Part shown: positions 8,811-16,307 of the stretch, one piece after another
How the letters are laid out: each line of letters begins with the position of its first letter
How positions within the stretch are numbered: position 1 is the first letter of the stretch
DNA from: Bacteroidetes bacterium 43-93
Lineage (GTDB): Bacteria; Bacteroidota; Bacteroidia; Chitinophagales; Chitinophagaceae
Direction of reading: 5' to 3'
Length of the DNA stretch: 64,000 nt
NCBI GenBank assembly: GCA_001897855.1
Contig: MKUO01000011.1
Location: forward strand, 1 to 64,000
Notes under the pieces: generated by a model
Told to the model about the DNA's origin: nothing
Database searches by the model: none
The model's input: the letters and a program-made list of their open reading frames with translations, nothing else
Translations under genes and position numbers: made by a program

Positions 8811-11800
8811 TTAATTTTTATATATTAACACTTTAAGAACTGATTCATTTACCTCAATTTCAGTACCATCTGATATTGCAGGCACAATCTCTAACCTATC
8901 TGCCAAAATTTCCGTGCAAATATAATCCCTAAAATTTAATATGGCAGATTTTAATGGTTCGTGCTCTTCTATATTAACATTGATACGGTCTGTAAGTTCC
9001 AGTCCCGTTTCTTTACGTATTTTTTGAATACGATTCACCAGCTCACGTGCATTACCCTCATCCTGCAATTCGGGTGTCACGGTGATATCCAGAGCAACAG
9101 TTAAGTTACCTTTATTGGCTACTGACCAACCCGGTATATCTTCTGCTATGATCTCTACATCGTCCGTCCCTATGGTTACCTGCTCCCCATCTATGGTTAG
9201 CTGATAAGCTTTTTGTTTTTCCAGCTCTGCTATCTGGTGCTGGTCCATTTGGTTGATAGCAGCAGCCACAGCCTTCATCTTAGCACCCATACGGGCACCA
9301 AGCGACTTGAAGTTTGCCTTTATCTTCTTCTTTATAAATCCTTCTGTTTCAGTTAGATATTCAATTGACTTTACATTTACCTCACCTTTCACCAATTCTT
9401 CGATCAATTGCACCTGTCCTTTCATGTGCGCATCTAATACAGGTATCAATACCTTTTGCAACGGCTGGCGAACTTTGATATTCACCTTCTTACGCAGCGA
9501 CAATACCAGCGATGATATATCCTGTGCCAGTTGCATACGCTCTTCCAGCTCTGTATCTATAATGCTCTCATCCACATCAGGGAAGTCTGCCAGGTGTACT
9601 GACTGCGCTTCCAGGCGATGGGTAACTCCATTAAGATTGGTATATAACCAGTCTGCAAAGAATGGCGCTATCGGGGCCATCATGATAGAAAGTGTTTCCA
9701 AACATTCATATAACGTTTGATAAGCACATATCTTATCATGTTCATACTCTCCCTTCCAGAAACGGCGACGGCACAGGCGAACGTACCAGTTACTCAAGTG
9801 CTCATCGAGGAATGTTTCCATAACCCGGCCTGCCTGTGTAGGTTCGTAATCGTCCATATAACCTTCCACTTCCTTTGCGAGGCTTTCCAGCGACGACAAT
9901 ATCCAGCGGTCTATTTCCGGACGCTGATCGTGTGGTATATATTTCTCTTTAAACGTAAAACCATCGACGTTAGCATATAAAGCGAAGAACTGGTAGGTAT
10001 TGTACAATGTACCGAAATACTTCCGCTGAACCTCTCTAATTCCTTCTAAATCAAAACGTAAGCTATCCCACGGACTTGCATTGGTAATGAGATACCAACG
10101 GGTAGCATCTGCACTATATTGCTCTATGGTATCGAATGGATTGATGGTATTGCCGAGGCGTTTACTCATCTTATTGCCATTCTTATCCAGCACCAGGCCG
10201 TTGCTCACTACTGTCTTATAAGCCACGCTGTCAAACAGCATTACCCCCAGGGCATGGAGGGTATAGAACCATCCGCGTGTCTGATCCACACCCTCTGCAA
10301 TGAAATCTGCCGGGAAGTTGTGATGCAGGGTCTTATCTGCATGGTTCTCAAATGGATAATGCAATTGCGCATAAGGCATTGCTCCACTATCAAACCATAC
10401 ATCTATCAGGTCCGGTTCGCGGGTCATAGCCTTGCCGCTATCACTTACCAGCACTATCTGGTCTACATAAGGTTTATGCAGATCAGCAGCTAATGCTTCA
10501 GCATCCTGATTGATATTCAATAACTTATTAGCCCTACTTATCTCATCCTTCAATTCTTCTACACTACCTATTACACGTATTTCACTACCATCGTCAGTAG
10601 CCCACACAGGTAGTGGAGTACCCCAATAGCGACTGCGGCTCAGGTTCCAGTCTACCATGTTTTCCAGCCACTTACCAAACCTTCCTTCACCGGTAGTTTT
10701 AGGTTTCCAGTTGATGGTCTTGTTTAGTTCTATCATCCTGTCCTTAACGGCAGTAGTCTTGATGAACCATGCATCAAGTGGATAATAGATCACCGGCTTG
10801 TCGGTACGCCAGCAGTGTGGGTAGGTATGTTCATATTTTTCAACCTTAAAGGCTTTACCGTTTTTCTTTAATATATCAACGGCTATGATCACATCCGTAT
10901 CCTGCCAGTCAGGATTGTCTTTATAATTTTTTACATATCTGCCACTCAACTCGCCCATGTAGTCGGTAAACTTACCTTCCTTATCTACCATGGTGAGGAT
11001 GCCTATATTATTCTTTTTACCTACACGATAGTCGTCTGCACCAAAGGCAGGGGCTGTGTGTACAATACCGGTACCATCTTCCGTTGTAACGAAATCGCCT
11101 GTTATTACCCTCCACGGATCGCCGCCTGCTATCTCCGCTGTATTACCCTCGTAAGGCAGCAATTGCTCGTAACGGCAACCTTCTATATCTTTTCCTTTAA
11201 ACTCTTTAATGATCTTCCAGGGTATCAGTTTGGTTTCTGCATTATATCCTGCAAAGTCGCCATTCTCCCCTTCCTGCTTAAAGTATTTATGTAGCAATGC
11301 CTTTGCAAGTACCACATTTACAGGCTGATGTGTGTATTGGTTGTATGTGCTAACTAATACATAGTCTATATTGGCACCAACTGTAAGTCCGCAGTTGCTT
11401 GGCAGCGTCCACGGTGTAGTAGTCCATGCCAGGAAGTGTACCGGTGCGCCGTTCGTTGCTTCGAACAGGAACTCAGATTCCTTATTGCGGATAGCATGGA
11501 ACATAGCCACTATTGTAGTGTCCTTTACATCCTTATAAGTACCGGGCATGTTCAGTTCGGCATTACTCAGGCCAGTACCTGCTGCCGGGCTGTATGGTTG
11601 TATGCTGACACTTTTATATAAGTATCCCTTTTCATGCAATTGCTTCAGCGCCCACCAGAGTGTTTCTATATACTTGTTATCGAAGGTGATGTACGGGTCG
11701 TTCATATCTACCCAATACCCCATCTTCTCGGTAATATCCTCCCACTCCTTCTTATAACGCATTACCGCTTCGCGGCATTTCTTATTATAATCTTCTACAG

Positions 11801-12152
11801 ATATTTTTTTACCGATATCTTCCTTAGTGATGCCCAGTTCCTTTTCCACACCCAGCTCTACCGGCAGGCCATGGGTATCCCAGCCCGCCTTACGGCGCAC
11901 CTGATAGCCCTGCATGGTCTTATAACGACAGATCAGGTCTTTGAGCGTACGGGAAATAACGTGGTGAATACCGGGCATACCGTTGGCACTTGGCGGCCCT
12001 TCATAAAAAACGAAGGGGTTGGATGCGTTACGGCTTTCTACACTTTTCTTAAATATATCATTAGCCTTCCAGCGTTGCAGTACTTCCTGCTCTATGGATG
12101 GCATGTTTAAACCTTTATATTCTATATACTTATCGCTCATCTTTGGTCTCAA
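8811..12152 (-). CDS. ileS: Isoleucyl-tRNA synthetase
   Basis: 1113 aa; class I signatures near GPPSANGMPGIHHV (HIGH-like) and KMSKRLGN (KMSKS). Confidence 0.97.
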   Translation of the reverse strand: MRPKMSDKYIEYKGLNMPSIEQEVLQRWKANDIFKKSVESRNASNPFVFYEGPPSANGMPGIHHVISRTLKDLICRYKTMQGYQVRRKAGWDTHGLPVELGVEKELGITKEDIGKKISVEDYNKKCREAVMRYKKEWEDITEKMGYWVDMNDPYITFDNKYIETLWWALKQLHEKGYLYKSVSIQPYSPAAGTGLSNAELNMPGTYKDVKDTTIVAMFHAIRNKESEFLFEATNGAPVHFLAWTTTPWTLPSNCGLTVGANIDYVLVSTYNQYTHQPVNVVLAKALLHKYFKQEGENGDFAGYNAETKLIPWKIIKEFKGKDIEGCRYEQLLPYEGNTAEIAGGDPWRVITGDFVTTEDGTGIVHTAPAFGADDYRVGKKNNIGILTMVDKEGKFTDYMGELSGRYVKNYKDNPDWQDTDVIIAVDILKKNGKAFKVEKYEHTYPHCWRTDKPVIYYPLDAWFIKTTAVKDRMIELNKTINWKPKTTGEGRFGKWLENMVDWNLSRSRYWGTPLPVWATDDGSEIRVIGSVEELKDEISRANKLLNINQDAEALAADLHKPYVDQIVLVSDSGKAMTREPDLIDVWFDSGAMPYAQLHYPFENHADKTLHHNFPADFIAEGVDQTRGWFYTLHALGVMLFDSVAYKTVVSNGLVLDKNGNKMSKRLGNTINPFDTIEQYSADATRWYLITNASPWDSLRFDLEGIREVQRKYFGTLYNTYQFFALYANVDGFTFKEKYIPHDQRPEIDRWILSSLESLAKEVEGYMDDYEPTQAGRVMETFLDEHLSNWYVRLCRRRFWKGEYEHDKICAYQTLYECLETLSIMMAPIAPFFADWLYTNLNGVTHRLEAQSVHLADFPDVDESIIDTELEERMQLAQDISSLVLSLRKKVNIKVRQPLQKVLIPVLDAHMKGQVQLIEELVKGEVNVKSIEYLTETEGFIKKKIKANFKSLGARMGAKMKAVAAAINQMDQHQIAELEKQKAYQLTIDGEQVTIGTDDVEIIAEDIPGWSVANKGNLTVALDITVTPELQDEGNARELVNRIQKIRKETGLELTDRINVNIEEHEPLKSAILNFRDYICTEILADRLEIVPAISDGTEIEVNESVLKVLIYKN

Positions 12153-12307
12153 AAACGCCCGGGTATAACATTCAGGATAGGAACACTACACCTTAAGCTA
12201 CTGAAAAATCAGGCGCGAAGTTAGGGAGAATTTTTGTGATTTGATAGTTATAAAGGGGGATTTATATATGTTACCGGAGCAGCTTTTACATTACCTTTAA
12301 GATTAAG

Positions 12308-12484
12308 ATGAAAAGGCTTTTCTACCTCGTTGTATCTATTGCCATCACCCTGGTGCTCATGGCCACATTTTTAAAGCCCTGGAAACGGCAGCTTACCACC
12401 GCAGCCATTATATTATTACTTATAAGCATGGGTATGTATTTTATATACCTGCTGCGGAACGGCAAACGTATTGATCGCAGTTAA
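12308..12484 (+). CDS. Small membrane protein (58 aa), unknown function
   Basis: My translation: MKRLFYLVVSIAITLVLMATFLKPWKRQLTTAAIILLLISMGMYFIYLLRNGKRIDRS; two TM segments; below the ORF-track cutoff. Confidence 0.5.
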   Translation: MKRLFYLVVSIAITLVLMATFLKPWKRQLTTAAIILLLISMGMYFIYLLRNGKRIDRS

Positions 12485-12490
12485 GGAAGT

Positions 12491-12772
12491 GTTCAATAGT
12501 GTTCAACTGTTCAACATGTTCAACCAATTGAACATTTGAACACTGTGTTTACTCTGTTCACGGTGTTCACGATGTTCATCTTGTTTACGGTGTGAACATG
12601 AACAGAACTGTTCCGGGGTGTTCCAGTGTTCCAGGTGTTCCATGGTTGGAACGGTGGAACGGTTGGAACACTTTCCAGACTTTTCATCTTTCCAGGCTGG
12701 AAAATTGGAAAATGGATATTCTGTTTCACGTGTTTCATCTGTTTCATTAGTTTCGGGGTGAAACAGAGAAAC
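12491..12772. repeat. Array A: five consecutive blocks of ~9-bp-periodic hexamers, each followed by its reverse complement (order GTTCAA, GTTCAC/GTTTAC, GTTCCA, TTTCCA, GTTTCA)
   Basis: e.g. GTTTAC/GTTCAC/GTTCAC/GTTCAT/GTTTAC starting at 12547,12556,12565,12574,12583 then GTGAAC, ATGAAC; GTTTC(A) at 12723,12732,12741,12750 then GAAAC-type at 12759,12768. Confidence 0.9.
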
Positions 12773-12862
12773 AAGATGGTCTCACAAAACATGTAAACCT
12801 ATTCTTCCAATCATTTCACAACTTTCTTTCGGGTTCAAGTTCTGAAGTGTTAGCTTAGAGCA

Positions 12863-13603
12863 ATGTCCTACCGATCCAAACACATGCAAACTGGTTCTGT
12901 TTCTGTAAAGGATGCAATCAATGAAGGTCTTAAATCAGCTAAAAGACCCTTATATAGCATACCTATCCTACCTACGATCGTGTGTATTGTACTAATATAC
13001 TATACACACTCATTTGTATACTTATTACTTATTCCATTTAGCATAACATTATCTGTTTTCTATTCAAAAAAGGCTACCAACAAATGGAGGCTCTGGGCAT
13101 ACAGATATGTCAACGATATTCACCAATTGCAACGCTCAGCGGAATATGCAGGTTTACTACCTTATCAATCTTACAATAAACCAAACGCTTTGGCCACACA
13201 TACTGAAAAAGAAGAACTGAAGGAGTTACAGAAAAGATTTGAGGAGGCTGAAGGTTTCATTGATGATAAAACCATCCCGTCAGAAACAGTAATCACTCCA
13301 GGAGCTGATTTTACTAAGCAATTCCCAAAGGTTACATTGACCCAATCCGGAATTTTGCTTTATCCCGGCAAGCTGATACCATGGGATCATGTATATAACG
13401 AACGCATACCTTCTATAACCTATTTATACGCCTCAGCACGTACTGGTGGCTATAATAATTCTTCCTCTGAGCGGGTATTCAGATTCAATACAGATGACAA
13501 TTATTATGAATTTCAATTAGGGAGTCTTACTACTACGGTATGGATGCTTGATTTACTACTATATACTTACAGAGGGCGTTTCACAACCAAACAGTCTATG
13601 TAA
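12863..13603 (+). CDS. Membrane protein of unknown function
   Basis: 246-aa ORF with two TM helices near residues 35-70. Confidence 0.6.
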   Translation: MSYRSKHMQTGSVSVKDAINEGLKSAKRPLYSIPILPTIVCIVLIYYTHSFVYLLLIPFSITLSVFYSKKATNKWRLWAYRYVNDIHQLQRSAEYAGLLPYQSYNKPNALATHTEKEELKELQKRFEEAEGFIDDKTIPSETVITPGADFTKQFPKVTLTQSGILLYPGKLIPWDHVYNERIPSITYLYASARTGGYNNSSSERVFRFNTDDNYYEFQLGSLTTTVWMLDLLLYTYRGRFTTKQSM

Positions 13604-13833
13604 TTTTCCATTTTCCATTTTCCAGGCTGGAAAACGTGGAAAATCCTGTTTCATCTGTTTCACCATGAAACCATGAAACAGATGAAACCTGTGAAACACT
13701 ACTTTTAATATGTTCTGTTCACGTGTTCACTCTGTAAACACCATGAACATCGTGAACAAAGTGAACAGGGTAAACAACAGTGTTCAACTGTTCAATCGGT
13801 GGAACATATTGAACACTTGAACACCATTGAACA
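13604..13833. repeat. Array B: periodic inverted-repeat blocks (order TTTCCA, GTTTCA, GTTCAC, GTTCAA)
   Basis: TTTCCA at 13605,13612,13619 then TGGAAA at 13628,13637; GTTTCA at 13648,13657 then TGAAAC at 13666,13674,13683,13692; begins right after the stop codon of the upstream CDS. Confidence 0.9.
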
Positions 13834-13881
13834 CTTCCCTTTCTTTCTACGATATAAATATATTATCTTGATACATCTATC

Positions 13882-15168
13882 ATGATTAAAAAGCTGGCAT
13901 TACCATTATTACTTTGTTTCCAATTTGGAGTAGCTTACTCACAGTCGGCACATAATTCTGTATCAGATTATGATTATTACACTTTTGCTGACAGGGAACC
14001 AATTTACAGGGATGAGTTTAACGACACCAGCAAGAATAATAAAGAGTGGCTAAATACCAACGATACCTATTTCCTAATTAATATCTCGAATGGCTGTCTT
14101 GTTATCACAAATAACGGAACGGATTACACAGCATCAGACTATACACTTAAGTTTGAATATCTGAGAGATTTTGAACTGGAGATATCGGCTAAGGTAGAAA
14201 GTCCTAAACGCAGAGACAGGAGTGGCATCCTGTTTTGGGGTCGAGACTCAAGCATATCTAAATATAATGGGCAATTTTTATATTTCAGTCATGGGAAACA
14301 TATCCTATTCAACCAAACCGGAGCAGAAACAGAAAACTATAGATTACCCCTACCCGACTTTACATTCAATGACAAAAAAGACTTTAATATTTATACTATA
14401 AGAAAGGTGGATAATGACTATTATCTATTTATCAATCATATATTATATAAAAAATACCCTTACTTCCCGTTAAACGGACAGCTAATAGGACTGGGAGCAT
14501 CTTCTAACGGTTCAACAGCATATTACGACTATATACATATTGATTATCTCAACAGGCATGAACTGAATAATCCTACAGCAGAATTTAAAGCTGGCACCAT
14601 AGGTTTGAAAACTTTTTTAAATGACCGTTTAAGCTTTACACTTGGCGCAGCATATGAATGTATGAGAGGCAGATTCCTGGTGCGGTATCGTGTAGATATT
14701 ACCGGCAAAGTTGATAGCATTATATCGTTGAGTGCATATGATATACTGAACCAGCAAACAGTAAAAGCATTGAATGAAACCGGTAATGGCTGGATACCCG
14801 CACACCACAAAGGCACACCTATGGCCTCGTGGAATAAGATGATAGTTGAATTCAGGCTCAATAGTAAAGGCAATTGTCCCCAACCGGTTTATTATTATGA
14901 CTTGGCAATGAAGTATTACAAAGAAGATAATATACCAATGTCAATTGAGAACTTCAAAACGTCTATAGGCGAAGATTTTGCAGATATCAAATCACTATAC
15001 AACCTATCTATGATATACATCAATCAGCAGCAATATGACAGTGCAGCCATCTACCTGAACAGAATAAACGAATTGAGGTCGATACCGGAATTGGATATCA
15101 AACAGGTAAATGAACAAATTGCCAAGACAGATGCAGATATGTATATTAAACAGTATTGCAAGCAGTAA
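13882..15168 (+). CDS. Exported protein with concanavalin/LamG-like domain and C-terminal TPR-like region
   Basis: Signal peptide; YRDEFNDTSKNNKEW...FELEISAKVESPKRRDRSGILFWG; C-terminal YDLAMKYYKEDNIPMSIENFKTSI...LYNLSMIYINQQQYDSAAIYLNRI. Confidence 0.6.
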   Translation: MIKKLALPLLLCFQFGVAYSQSAHNSVSDYDYYTFADREPIYRDEFNDTSKNNKEWLNTNDTYFLINISNGCLVITNNGTDYTASDYTLKFEYLRDFELEISAKVESPKRRDRSGILFWGRDSSISKYNGQFLYFSHGKHILFNQTGAETENYRLPLPDFTFNDKKDFNIYTIRKVDNDYYLFINHILYKKYPYFPLNGQLIGLGASSNGSTAYYDYIHIDYLNRHELNNPTAEFKAGTIGLKTFLNDRLSFTLGAAYECMRGRFLVRYRVDITGKVDSIISLSAYDILNQQTVKALNETGNGWIPAHHKGTPMASWNKMIVEFRLNSKGNCPQPVYYYDLAMKYYKEDNIPMSIENFKTSIGEDFADIKSLYNLSMIYINQQQYDSAAIYLNRINELRSIPELDIKQVNEQIAKTDADMYIKQYCKQ

Positions 15169-15457
15169 TTTCCAATTTTCCATTTTTCCATTTTCCAGGC
15201 TGGAAACGTGGAAAATCCTGTTTCATCTGTTTCACCATGAAACAATGAAACACGTGAAACACTACTTCTGATATGTTCTGTTCACGTTCACACTATGAAC
15301 ATCGTGAACAAGATGAACAGGGTAAACAAGAGTGTTCAACTGTTCAATTTGTTGAACACCTTGAACACTTGAACACCATTGAACACCTCTACTGTTCCAA
15401 CCGTTCCACCGTTCCAACCATGGAACACATGGAACACATGGAACACTTTGGAACACC
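15169..15457. repeat. Array C: periodic inverted-repeat blocks (order TTTCCA, GTTTCA, GTTCAC, GTTCAA, GTTCCA)
   Basis: First ~200 bp near-identical to array B; final block GTTCCA at 15394,15403,15411 then TGGAAC at 15421,15430,15439,15449. Confidence 0.9.
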
Positions 15458-15548
15458 CTGCTTTTTGGTATATATTTTGTTGTAACCTCACAAAACCCGC
15501 CTACCCTGTTTATCATGACATAATATTTCAATACTTTCACAGCACTCT

Positions 15549-16307
15549 ATGAAGCACTTACTACCTATATTGATATTGTTGCTCTCCTATTCGTCTTATG
15601 GTGCGGGCGATACCGTACATTATAGGTACAAGCACCCCAACCAGGCTTCCATCATACCCTTTATCAGCTACTGCCCCGGCGGGCCCGATATGCTGCCTGC
15701 AAAACATGGACTGGACGGTAGTTTTATTAACTATGCCGGACTTGGACTGCGCGGACAATCATCGCACAAATACTGGCAGGCGGGACTTGCGCTGGAAGTT
15801 GGCGGCACACAAGTAAAGGCTACTGTGAATAAGGGCTACCAGGATCCTGCAAGACATGCCTTCAGCACTCAACTGATGAATGATAATGTGTATTGCCGGG
15901 AACGTTATATCAGCTCTTACGTGTACCTGCATGGCAAGATCGGTTTCTTCCGTCAGCATGTGCAACTGTTCGCGGGTATCATGGGCAGCCTTTCTGTAAA
16001 TGGTGCTGCCAGCAATTACAGCTATTTTGAATATAACAGTCCTTCGGGCAAACTCTTATTAATGAGTGCCCCATCAAATGGCTTGCTACCGGGCTATGGC
16101 GGACAGGCGGGCATCGCCGTAAAACTTGCCAAAAAACTATATCTCGTTGCACAGGCGGAAGCTAGAAAAACCAGGGCCTATGCTTATGTACTCGATCCCC
16201 AAAGGGCTGATGATAGGTTTGATAACAACACCACCCTTCAATACGCACATTTTTATTATCACTATTGGTATTACCCGGTATCTATCGGTGTGAGGTTTTC
16301 GAGGTAG
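15549..16307 (+). CDS. Exported/outer-membrane-like protein of unknown function
   Basis: 252 aa; signal peptide; Gly/aromatic-rich beta-strand-like C-terminus ending YPVSIGVRFSR. Confidence 0.55.
   Translation: MKHLLPILILLLSYSSYGAGDTVHYRYKHPNQASIIPFISYCPGGPDMLPAKHGLDGSFINYAGLGLRGQSSHKYWQAGLALEVGGTQVKATVNKGYQDPARHAFSTQLMNDNVYCRERYISSYVYLHGKIGFFRQHVQLFAGIMGSLSVNGAASNYSYFEYNSPSGKLLLMSAPSNGLLPGYGGQAGIAVKLAKKLYLVAQAEARKTRAYAYVLDPQRADDRFDNNTTLQYAHFYYHYWYYPVSIGVRFSR

Follow-up and report, generated by a model that had tools for sequence, protein, structure and literature searches.

Inverted arrays of iteron-like words as probable ends of small gene cassettes in Bacteroidetes bacterium 43-93 and its genus

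Introduction

In the integrative element SGI1 an iteron origin (rep-oriV) lies directly downstream of rep, with four 17-bp direct repeats that are read by the initiator (PMC7433901). RSF1010 carries ssiA and ssiB, single 40-nt hairpins of fixed sequence, one per strand, that are read by the RepB' primase (PMC4434180). Other systems with some likeness to the arrays described here are the mobilizable transposons of the Tn4555/NBU kind (PMC5704250), integron attC cassettes and REPs, which are dispersed copies of one consensus (PMC3733652).

Here we analyse array A, a cluster of hairpin blocks at positions 12491–12772 of the window (the whole 64,000-nucleotide stretch of DNA from Bacteroidetes bacterium 43-93), together with arrays of the same build in this genome, its genus and the Bacteroidia. 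As in SGI1, an integrative element carries short repeats immediately 3' of a replication gene, and a DNA-binding replication protein is their likely reader. However, the repeats are 5–6 nt words at 8–10 bp steps in both orientations, the likely reader is predicted to be the helicase's own helix-turn-helix (HTH), the arrays of the genus are duplicated in inverted form around cargo, and those of the window have no helicase gene alongside. In RSF1010, too, two hairpin sites occur in a replicon that encodes a helicase and a primase of its own, whereas the arrays of the genus consist of multi-copy words and the word tracks the helicase HTH. The cfxA circle of B. fragilis (CP103138.1) resembles the Tn4555/NBU elements in having integrase, excisionase, AAA_25, DUF6371 and mobilization genes; the cassettes of the genus, at the loci read, have neither integrase nor mobilization genes, and their arrays flank the cargo as inverted pairs. 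Small gene cassettes, imperfect hairpin sites and cargo exchange recall integrons, but the arrays have no attC core, the site sequence changes from cassette to cassette and inverted arrays lie on both sides. Like REP/BIME elements and CGTC-tagged REPs they are palindromic and intergenic, and several arrays of the genus have CGTC-like units nearby, yet the arrays have an architecture in common rather than a sequence and are few per genome.

We propose, with a probability of about 0.55, that array A forms the left boundary of a small gene cassette and that inverted arrays of iteron-like, putative protein-binding words mark the ends of this cassette.

Results

Array A consists of five hairpin blocks

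The 282 bp of array A divide into five blocks, each with 2–5 forward copies of one 5–6 nt word followed by 2–3 reverse-complement copies. All features below are on the plus strand.

12491–12772, array A, multi-word array of left-end type with five hairpin blocks; its ortholog A' in the related genome G014 is 78% identical
12491–12541, block 1, GTTCAA at 12491, 12501, 12509 and 12518; TTGAAC at 12528 and 12536
12547–12603, block 2, GTTTAC at 12547, GTTCAC at 12556 and 12565, GTTCAT at 12574, GTTTAC at 12583; GTGAAC at 12592, ATGAAC at 12598
12610–12669, block 3, GTTCC at 12610, 12620, 12628 and 12637; GGAAC at 12648, 12656 and 12665
12672–12711, block 4, TTTCCA at 12672 and 12689, with a degenerate TTTTCA at 12681; TGGAAA at 12698 and 12706
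12723–12772, block 5, GTTTC at 12723, 12732, 12741 and 12750; GAAAC at 12760 and 12768

An earlier note on this DNA had described these word copies and hairpin blocks, and a direct rereading agrees with it: the repeat score of the array is 43, against a mean of 0.92 and a maximum of 10 in 2000 dinucleotide shuffles. The 9-bp periodicity that the note gave to the whole element holds exactly for blocks 2 and 5 alone, whereas the step is 8–10 bp in blocks 1 and 3. Folding is strong (z = −7.9 as DNA and −7.1 as RNA; equalled by 0 of 200 shuffles).

We agree with the earlier note that array A is not a CRISPR, a REP, a microsatellite or a single terminator. An intrinsic terminator was rejected because no GC-rich stem with a T tract was found in 12200–15700 (0 terminator-like sites versus a shuffle mean of 2.2), and a scan of the window against Rfam gave 0 matches. 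A match to PDB entry 8vd6 ('CAP repeat') was set aside, as its source is a protein-design paper.

The strength of the RNA fold raises the question of a function in RNA, either as 3'-end hairpins that end or stabilize transcripts or through nested left–right pairing that folds the cargo mRNA. Arrays do start immediately past stop codons, and the forward words of one array are able to pair with the reverse words of the other. The 3'-end role, suggested in the earlier note, is nevertheless disfavoured by the lack of any terminator-like site or Rfam match, by an array in a Bacteroides element that lies inside a coding region, and by the covariation of word and protein helix described below, which a role in RNA leaves unexplained. 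We consider a function in RNA quite unlikely.

Arrays A, B and C enclose two genes in the window

Searching the genome with array A as query identified two further arrays, B and C, both inverted relative to A. The unit reads ileS, A – 246-aa gene – B – 428-aa gene – C, 252-aa gene.

8811–12152, minus strand, ileS, left flank, conserved in G014
12308–12484, plus strand, 58-aa ORF, whose end lies 6 bp ahead of array A
12863–13603, plus strand, cargo gene 1 (246 aa), without Pfam or PADLOC match; array-free homologs in the genomes G002, G005, G008 and G013
13605–13832, minus strand, array B, inverted versus A, right-end type, 85% identical to C, starting 2 bp past the stop of the 246-aa ORF
13882–15168, plus strand, cargo gene 2 (428 aa), with a weak C-terminal TPR match; its 430-aa G014 ortholog lies between A' and C'
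15169–15454, minus strand, array C, inverted versus A, right-end type, starting immediately past the stop of the 428-aa ORF; C' in G014 is 76% identical
15549–16307, plus strand, 252-aa ORF, right flank, conserved in G014

The earlier note had considered array A alone. More can be learned from the inverted pair A...B/C, taken as a unit with the enclosed gene or genes.

The counterpart in G014 is simpler and reads A' – 430 aa – C'. Since A matches A' (78%), C matches C' (76%) and B is nearest to C (85%), the window has two things that G014 lacks at this locus, the 246-aa gene and one array of right-end type. A and B are mutually inverted, so the 246-aa gene cannot be gained or lost by plain recombination between the two. 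In the aligned pairs A/A', C/C' and B/C', word positions differ by 1–3% and spacers by 20–21%. Something keeps the words in these arrays; the simplest cause would be a factor that reads them, although multi-register pairing or gene conversion could contribute.

Neither cargo gene of the window matched a defence model in a PADLOC scan, and a tblastn search of plasmids with the 246-aa protein gave no match. The DNA of the 428-aa gene has diverged by 26% from its G014 ortholog, compared with 7.5% for ileS and 14% for the 252-aa gene. A 90-aa ORF on the minus strand (12520–12792) runs over array A; we reject it as a gene because it is a by-product of the 9-bp period, and it carries a risk of false-gene annotation. 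A comparable ORF, of 92 aa, overlaps array C.

The architecture recurs in the genus with many words

That such arrays may form a recurring class was raised in the earlier note, which left the matter to a scan of the genome and its relatives and a check against known repeat families. The outcome favours such a class: further arrays turned up at many loci, in most species of the genus and elsewhere in the class, and those of the window match no Rfam family. Within this genome they are rare: on the basis of our searches and of 800 kb sampled from two other contigs, in which no convincing array was seen, it holds three multi-word arrays, all in the window, and two helicase-linked cassettes with other words on contigs C21 and C12. 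The GTTCA pattern matches only arrays A, B and C in this genome. GTTCA-type arrays were found in it and in eight others of the 15 genomes of the genus; outside the genus, the only one of 86 genomes to match the pattern did so with a plain tandem repeat.

What the arrays share is their build. Many words occur in the genus (GTTCA, GTTCC, GTTCG, GTTTC, TTTCC, GTCCC, GTACG, GCTCA, GCCCA, ATTCAC and others), and all arrays read have 8–10 bp steps and forward-then-reverse order. The number of words per array has a mode of 6 (15 of 45 arrays).

Two smaller elements accompany some of the arrays. A REP-like palindrome, CGTCATTGCGAGG...GAAGCAATCTC, similar to CGTC-tagged REPs (PMC3733652), adjoins or separates arrays at ten loci (L161, L162, L163, L166, L168, L169, L176, L179, L195 and L218); array A showed none. 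Near cassettes at L174, L190, L191, L195, L203 and L218 lie small ORFs that start with a GIY-YIG-like sequence (GGAVYILSSPNRxTLYIGVTS).

The hairpins might be the ends of a known single-strand mobile system, such as integron attC or RAYT/IS200-type elements. Single-gene cassettes with imperfect hairpins do resemble attC cassettes in outline, and CGTC-type REP-like palindromes are present near many arrays. However, array A has 0 GTTRRRY sites, of the attC core pair GTTRRRY/RYYYAAC, the word varies freely between cassettes, and no Y1 transposase (Y1_Tnp) gene is present in G002, G005, G006 and G011, all of which carry arrays. Both the attC and the REP/RAYT assignment were rejected on these grounds, and we regard an origin in either system as highly improbable. 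A Y1_Tnp-type gene does lie on the contig of the window in this genome (G000:C11:73298-73647), ∼ 9 kb past the window, and is broken by a stop and a frame change.

Inverted arrays enclose changing cargo

Arrays in the genus are mostly paired and enclose one gene or a small gene group. The members of a pair share their word; for 25 of 30 pairs the inverted match is better than the direct match, and 21 of the 30 score higher than the 95th percentile for arrays paired across loci. Read outward from the cargo, multi-word arrays have their words in a largely mirrored order.

At a given locus similar arrays hold different genes according to species. The cargo at the FdhD locus is a 203-aa, an ApeA-like or a 428-aa protein, that at the PhoH locus measures 145/141 aa or 235 aa, and many different cargo genes lie between the arrays of helicase–DUF6371 loci. 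The PhoH locus is array-free in G000, G014, G010 and G011, where intergenic divergence obscures the exact junctions; the site of the C21 cassette, sought in G014, fell at contig ends. At the loci read we saw no transposase or recombinase, no target duplication and no clean junction for the cassettes of the genus.

These observations bear on whether the arrays are passive repeats, tandem and inverted duplicates of short length spread by slippage and gene conversion where intergenic sites are variable, with inverted copies that homogenize each other and cargo that is swapped by homologous recombination in the flanks. Greater likeness within pairs than between arrays elsewhere would be expected under gene conversion, just as different cargo within similar arrays at one locus would be expected under flank recombination, and array-free homologs of the cargo exist. 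On the other hand, spacers drift while words stay, the architecture is restricted everywhere to 8–10 bp steps and forward-then-reverse order, the inverted A and B cannot have gained the 246-aa gene by recombining with each other, and passive spread does not predict a word that varies with the recognition helix of the helicase next to it (see below). We therefore think passive spread unlikely. We suggest instead that the words most likely serve as iteron-like binding sites for a protein and that the inverted arrays mark cassette ends.

The array word tracks the recognition helix of the AAA_25 helicase

Across the Bacteroidia, single-hairpin arrays start directly past the stop codon of an AAA_25 ATPase gene and ahead of a DUF6371 gene. 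Profiles group the AAA_25 protein with primase/helicase and DnaB-like proteins, and DUF6371 with primases. In Bacteroidia elements the order helicase – array – DUF6371 occurs without cargo, often with an integrase-like gene and often near an mnmE-like gene (both assigned by reading the sequence). One such array belongs to the cfxA circle CP103138.1, which from its gene content may be Tn4555 itself; it has a GTCCC array and a matching helix in its AAA_25 protein. The array (within L408:740-1102) is translated as the C-terminal tail of that protein; it falls inside the helicase coding sequence, at its 3' end, and 3 bp from the next gene.

The C-terminus of the AAA_25 ATPase is an HTH whose recognition helix varies with the word of the array. 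GTTCA is paired with [VI][SA][VL]xxVN, GTTCC with IGLxxVN, ATTCC with IGAxTVN, GCTCC with IGTGTVS, GTCCC with xKSx/SKTx, CGTAC with SEGA and GTAAC mostly with xHMKV. Over 47 loci, helix and word similarity are correlated with r 0.52, and with a partial Mantel r of 0.50 once ATPase similarity is removed (0 of 5000 permutations), figures that are strong but are not clean probabilities because the sequences are related, a kinship that inflates the covariation, and some words were assigned by eye. For the ATPase domain the corresponding value is only 0.20. Where ATPase domains are 98–100% identical but the helices differ, the words are mostly different as well (L194, L224, L226 and L227, and the pair L216/L217 of this genome, whose helices are those for GCTCC and GCCCA). 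Prediction of the word from the helix succeeded in 24.8 of 40 leave-one-out cases (permutation mean 3.2) and at 9 of 11 previously unused viral-contig and plasmid loci. These data are consistent with a model in which the HTH binds the word of the adjoining array, which we regard as most likely.

Phage-type AAA_25-like homologs without an HTH were array-free in 11 of 11 cases; L397–L407 are large-phage contigs with AAA_25-like helicases of this kind. HTH-bearing homologs without an array also occur (L258, L279, L280, L286 and L290). DUF3987 genes that lack an AAA_25-type HTH have arrays past their stop codon, mostly with GTTCR words (L161, L168, L210, L211 and L212), and thus another reader may exist. 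No AAA_25 gene was found near arrays A, B and C; the two of this genome sit elsewhere, on contigs where the words are different, and a search of G000 and G014 found neither a further HTH of this type nor another protein with the right helix. Orthogonality of words between helicases that share one genome was not significant (P 0.33), and we therefore make no claim of incompatibility.

The same covariation would suit regulation as well as replication. The arrays could be operators at which the helicase HTH, or another HTH protein, represses or co-ordinates expression of the cargo, with no role in replication or mobility. The upstream array sits between helicase stop and cargo start, as an operator would, and many cargo genes are defence effectors that would call for control. 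A second, inverted array with the same word nevertheless sits behind the cargo, cargo varies between like arrays at one locus, and in integrative elements the array parts the helicase from the primase gene where there is no cargo, lying in Bacteroides inside the coding end of the helicase. An operator role is, in our judgement, improbable; it and passive spread are the main rivals of iteron-like words at cassette ends.

Among the three functions suggested in the earlier note, protein binding is thus the one best supported, by the covariation of helix and word; a mobile element is supported as far as the cassettes go, and not as to mechanism.

Cargo is enriched in defence genes

PADLOC models matched 15 of 30 cargo proteins at a cut-off of 1e-5, compared with 3 of 20 genes of similar length drawn at random from the same genome (Fisher P 0.016); some of the scanned cargo was chosen for a defence-like look, and the 30 represent most of the cassettes found. 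The types comprise SIR2/ThsA-like, GajA/OLD, FRG, GmrSD-like, ApeA, bSEFIR, TIR, AbiU and Fic-like proteins as well as candidate systems.

Discussion

Iterons, mobilizable elements and defence cassettes are all known. Inverted word-matched arrays that bound single genes and are tied to a helicase HTH match none of the systems tested. In the open-access literature we found no description of such arrays or of the helix/word relation, nor of DUF6371, AAA_25 or Chitinophagaceae repeats in this role.

We envisage the hairpin block, in which one word is repeated about six times at 8–10 bp intervals and in both orientations, as the basic unit. In its simplest form a single block lies directly behind the gene of an AAA_25 replicative helicase, and the HTH of this helicase most likely reads the word. 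Helicase, array and primase together resemble the replication module of Bacteroidota integrative mobilizable elements, and in the genus this module appears to have turned into a vehicle for one cargo gene at a time, frequently an anti-phage one, flanked on either side by inverted arrays that match. Arrays of several words, such as A, consist of several blocks stacked, in an order largely mirrored at the two ends. We speculate that the arrays are helicase-loading, origin-like sites at the cassette ends, and that loading at both ends lets the cassette replicate or move.

A bolder proposal, which we hold only tentatively and with some doubt, is that these are an undescribed class of Bacteroidota mobile defence cassettes. 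Each would be bounded by inverted arrays of its own barcode word, to be read by the HTH of a replicative helicase; this helicase would load at both ends and, with the DUF6371 primase, would drive replication or transfer of the cassette; multi-word arrays would then record successive capture by helicases of different specificity.

If an operator or origin role held for the helicase-linked arrays alone, the arrays would stand nearer to known kinds. Should the words mark cassette ends as we propose, they would provide a simple sequence signature by which to find single-gene defence cassettes of the Bacteroidota, many with cargo of no known function. The helices would constitute a natural recognition code for a helicase-fused HTH, in which an octamer of the helix corresponds to a 5-nt word and a one-residue change from T to K matches the change from GCTCC to GCCCA between the two helicases of this genome. 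In the arrays, the replication module of mobilizable elements of Bacteroides, among them the one that bears cfxA, would also have a candidate origin, and there would be a testable lead as to how single defence genes come to be shuffled when no transposase is obvious.
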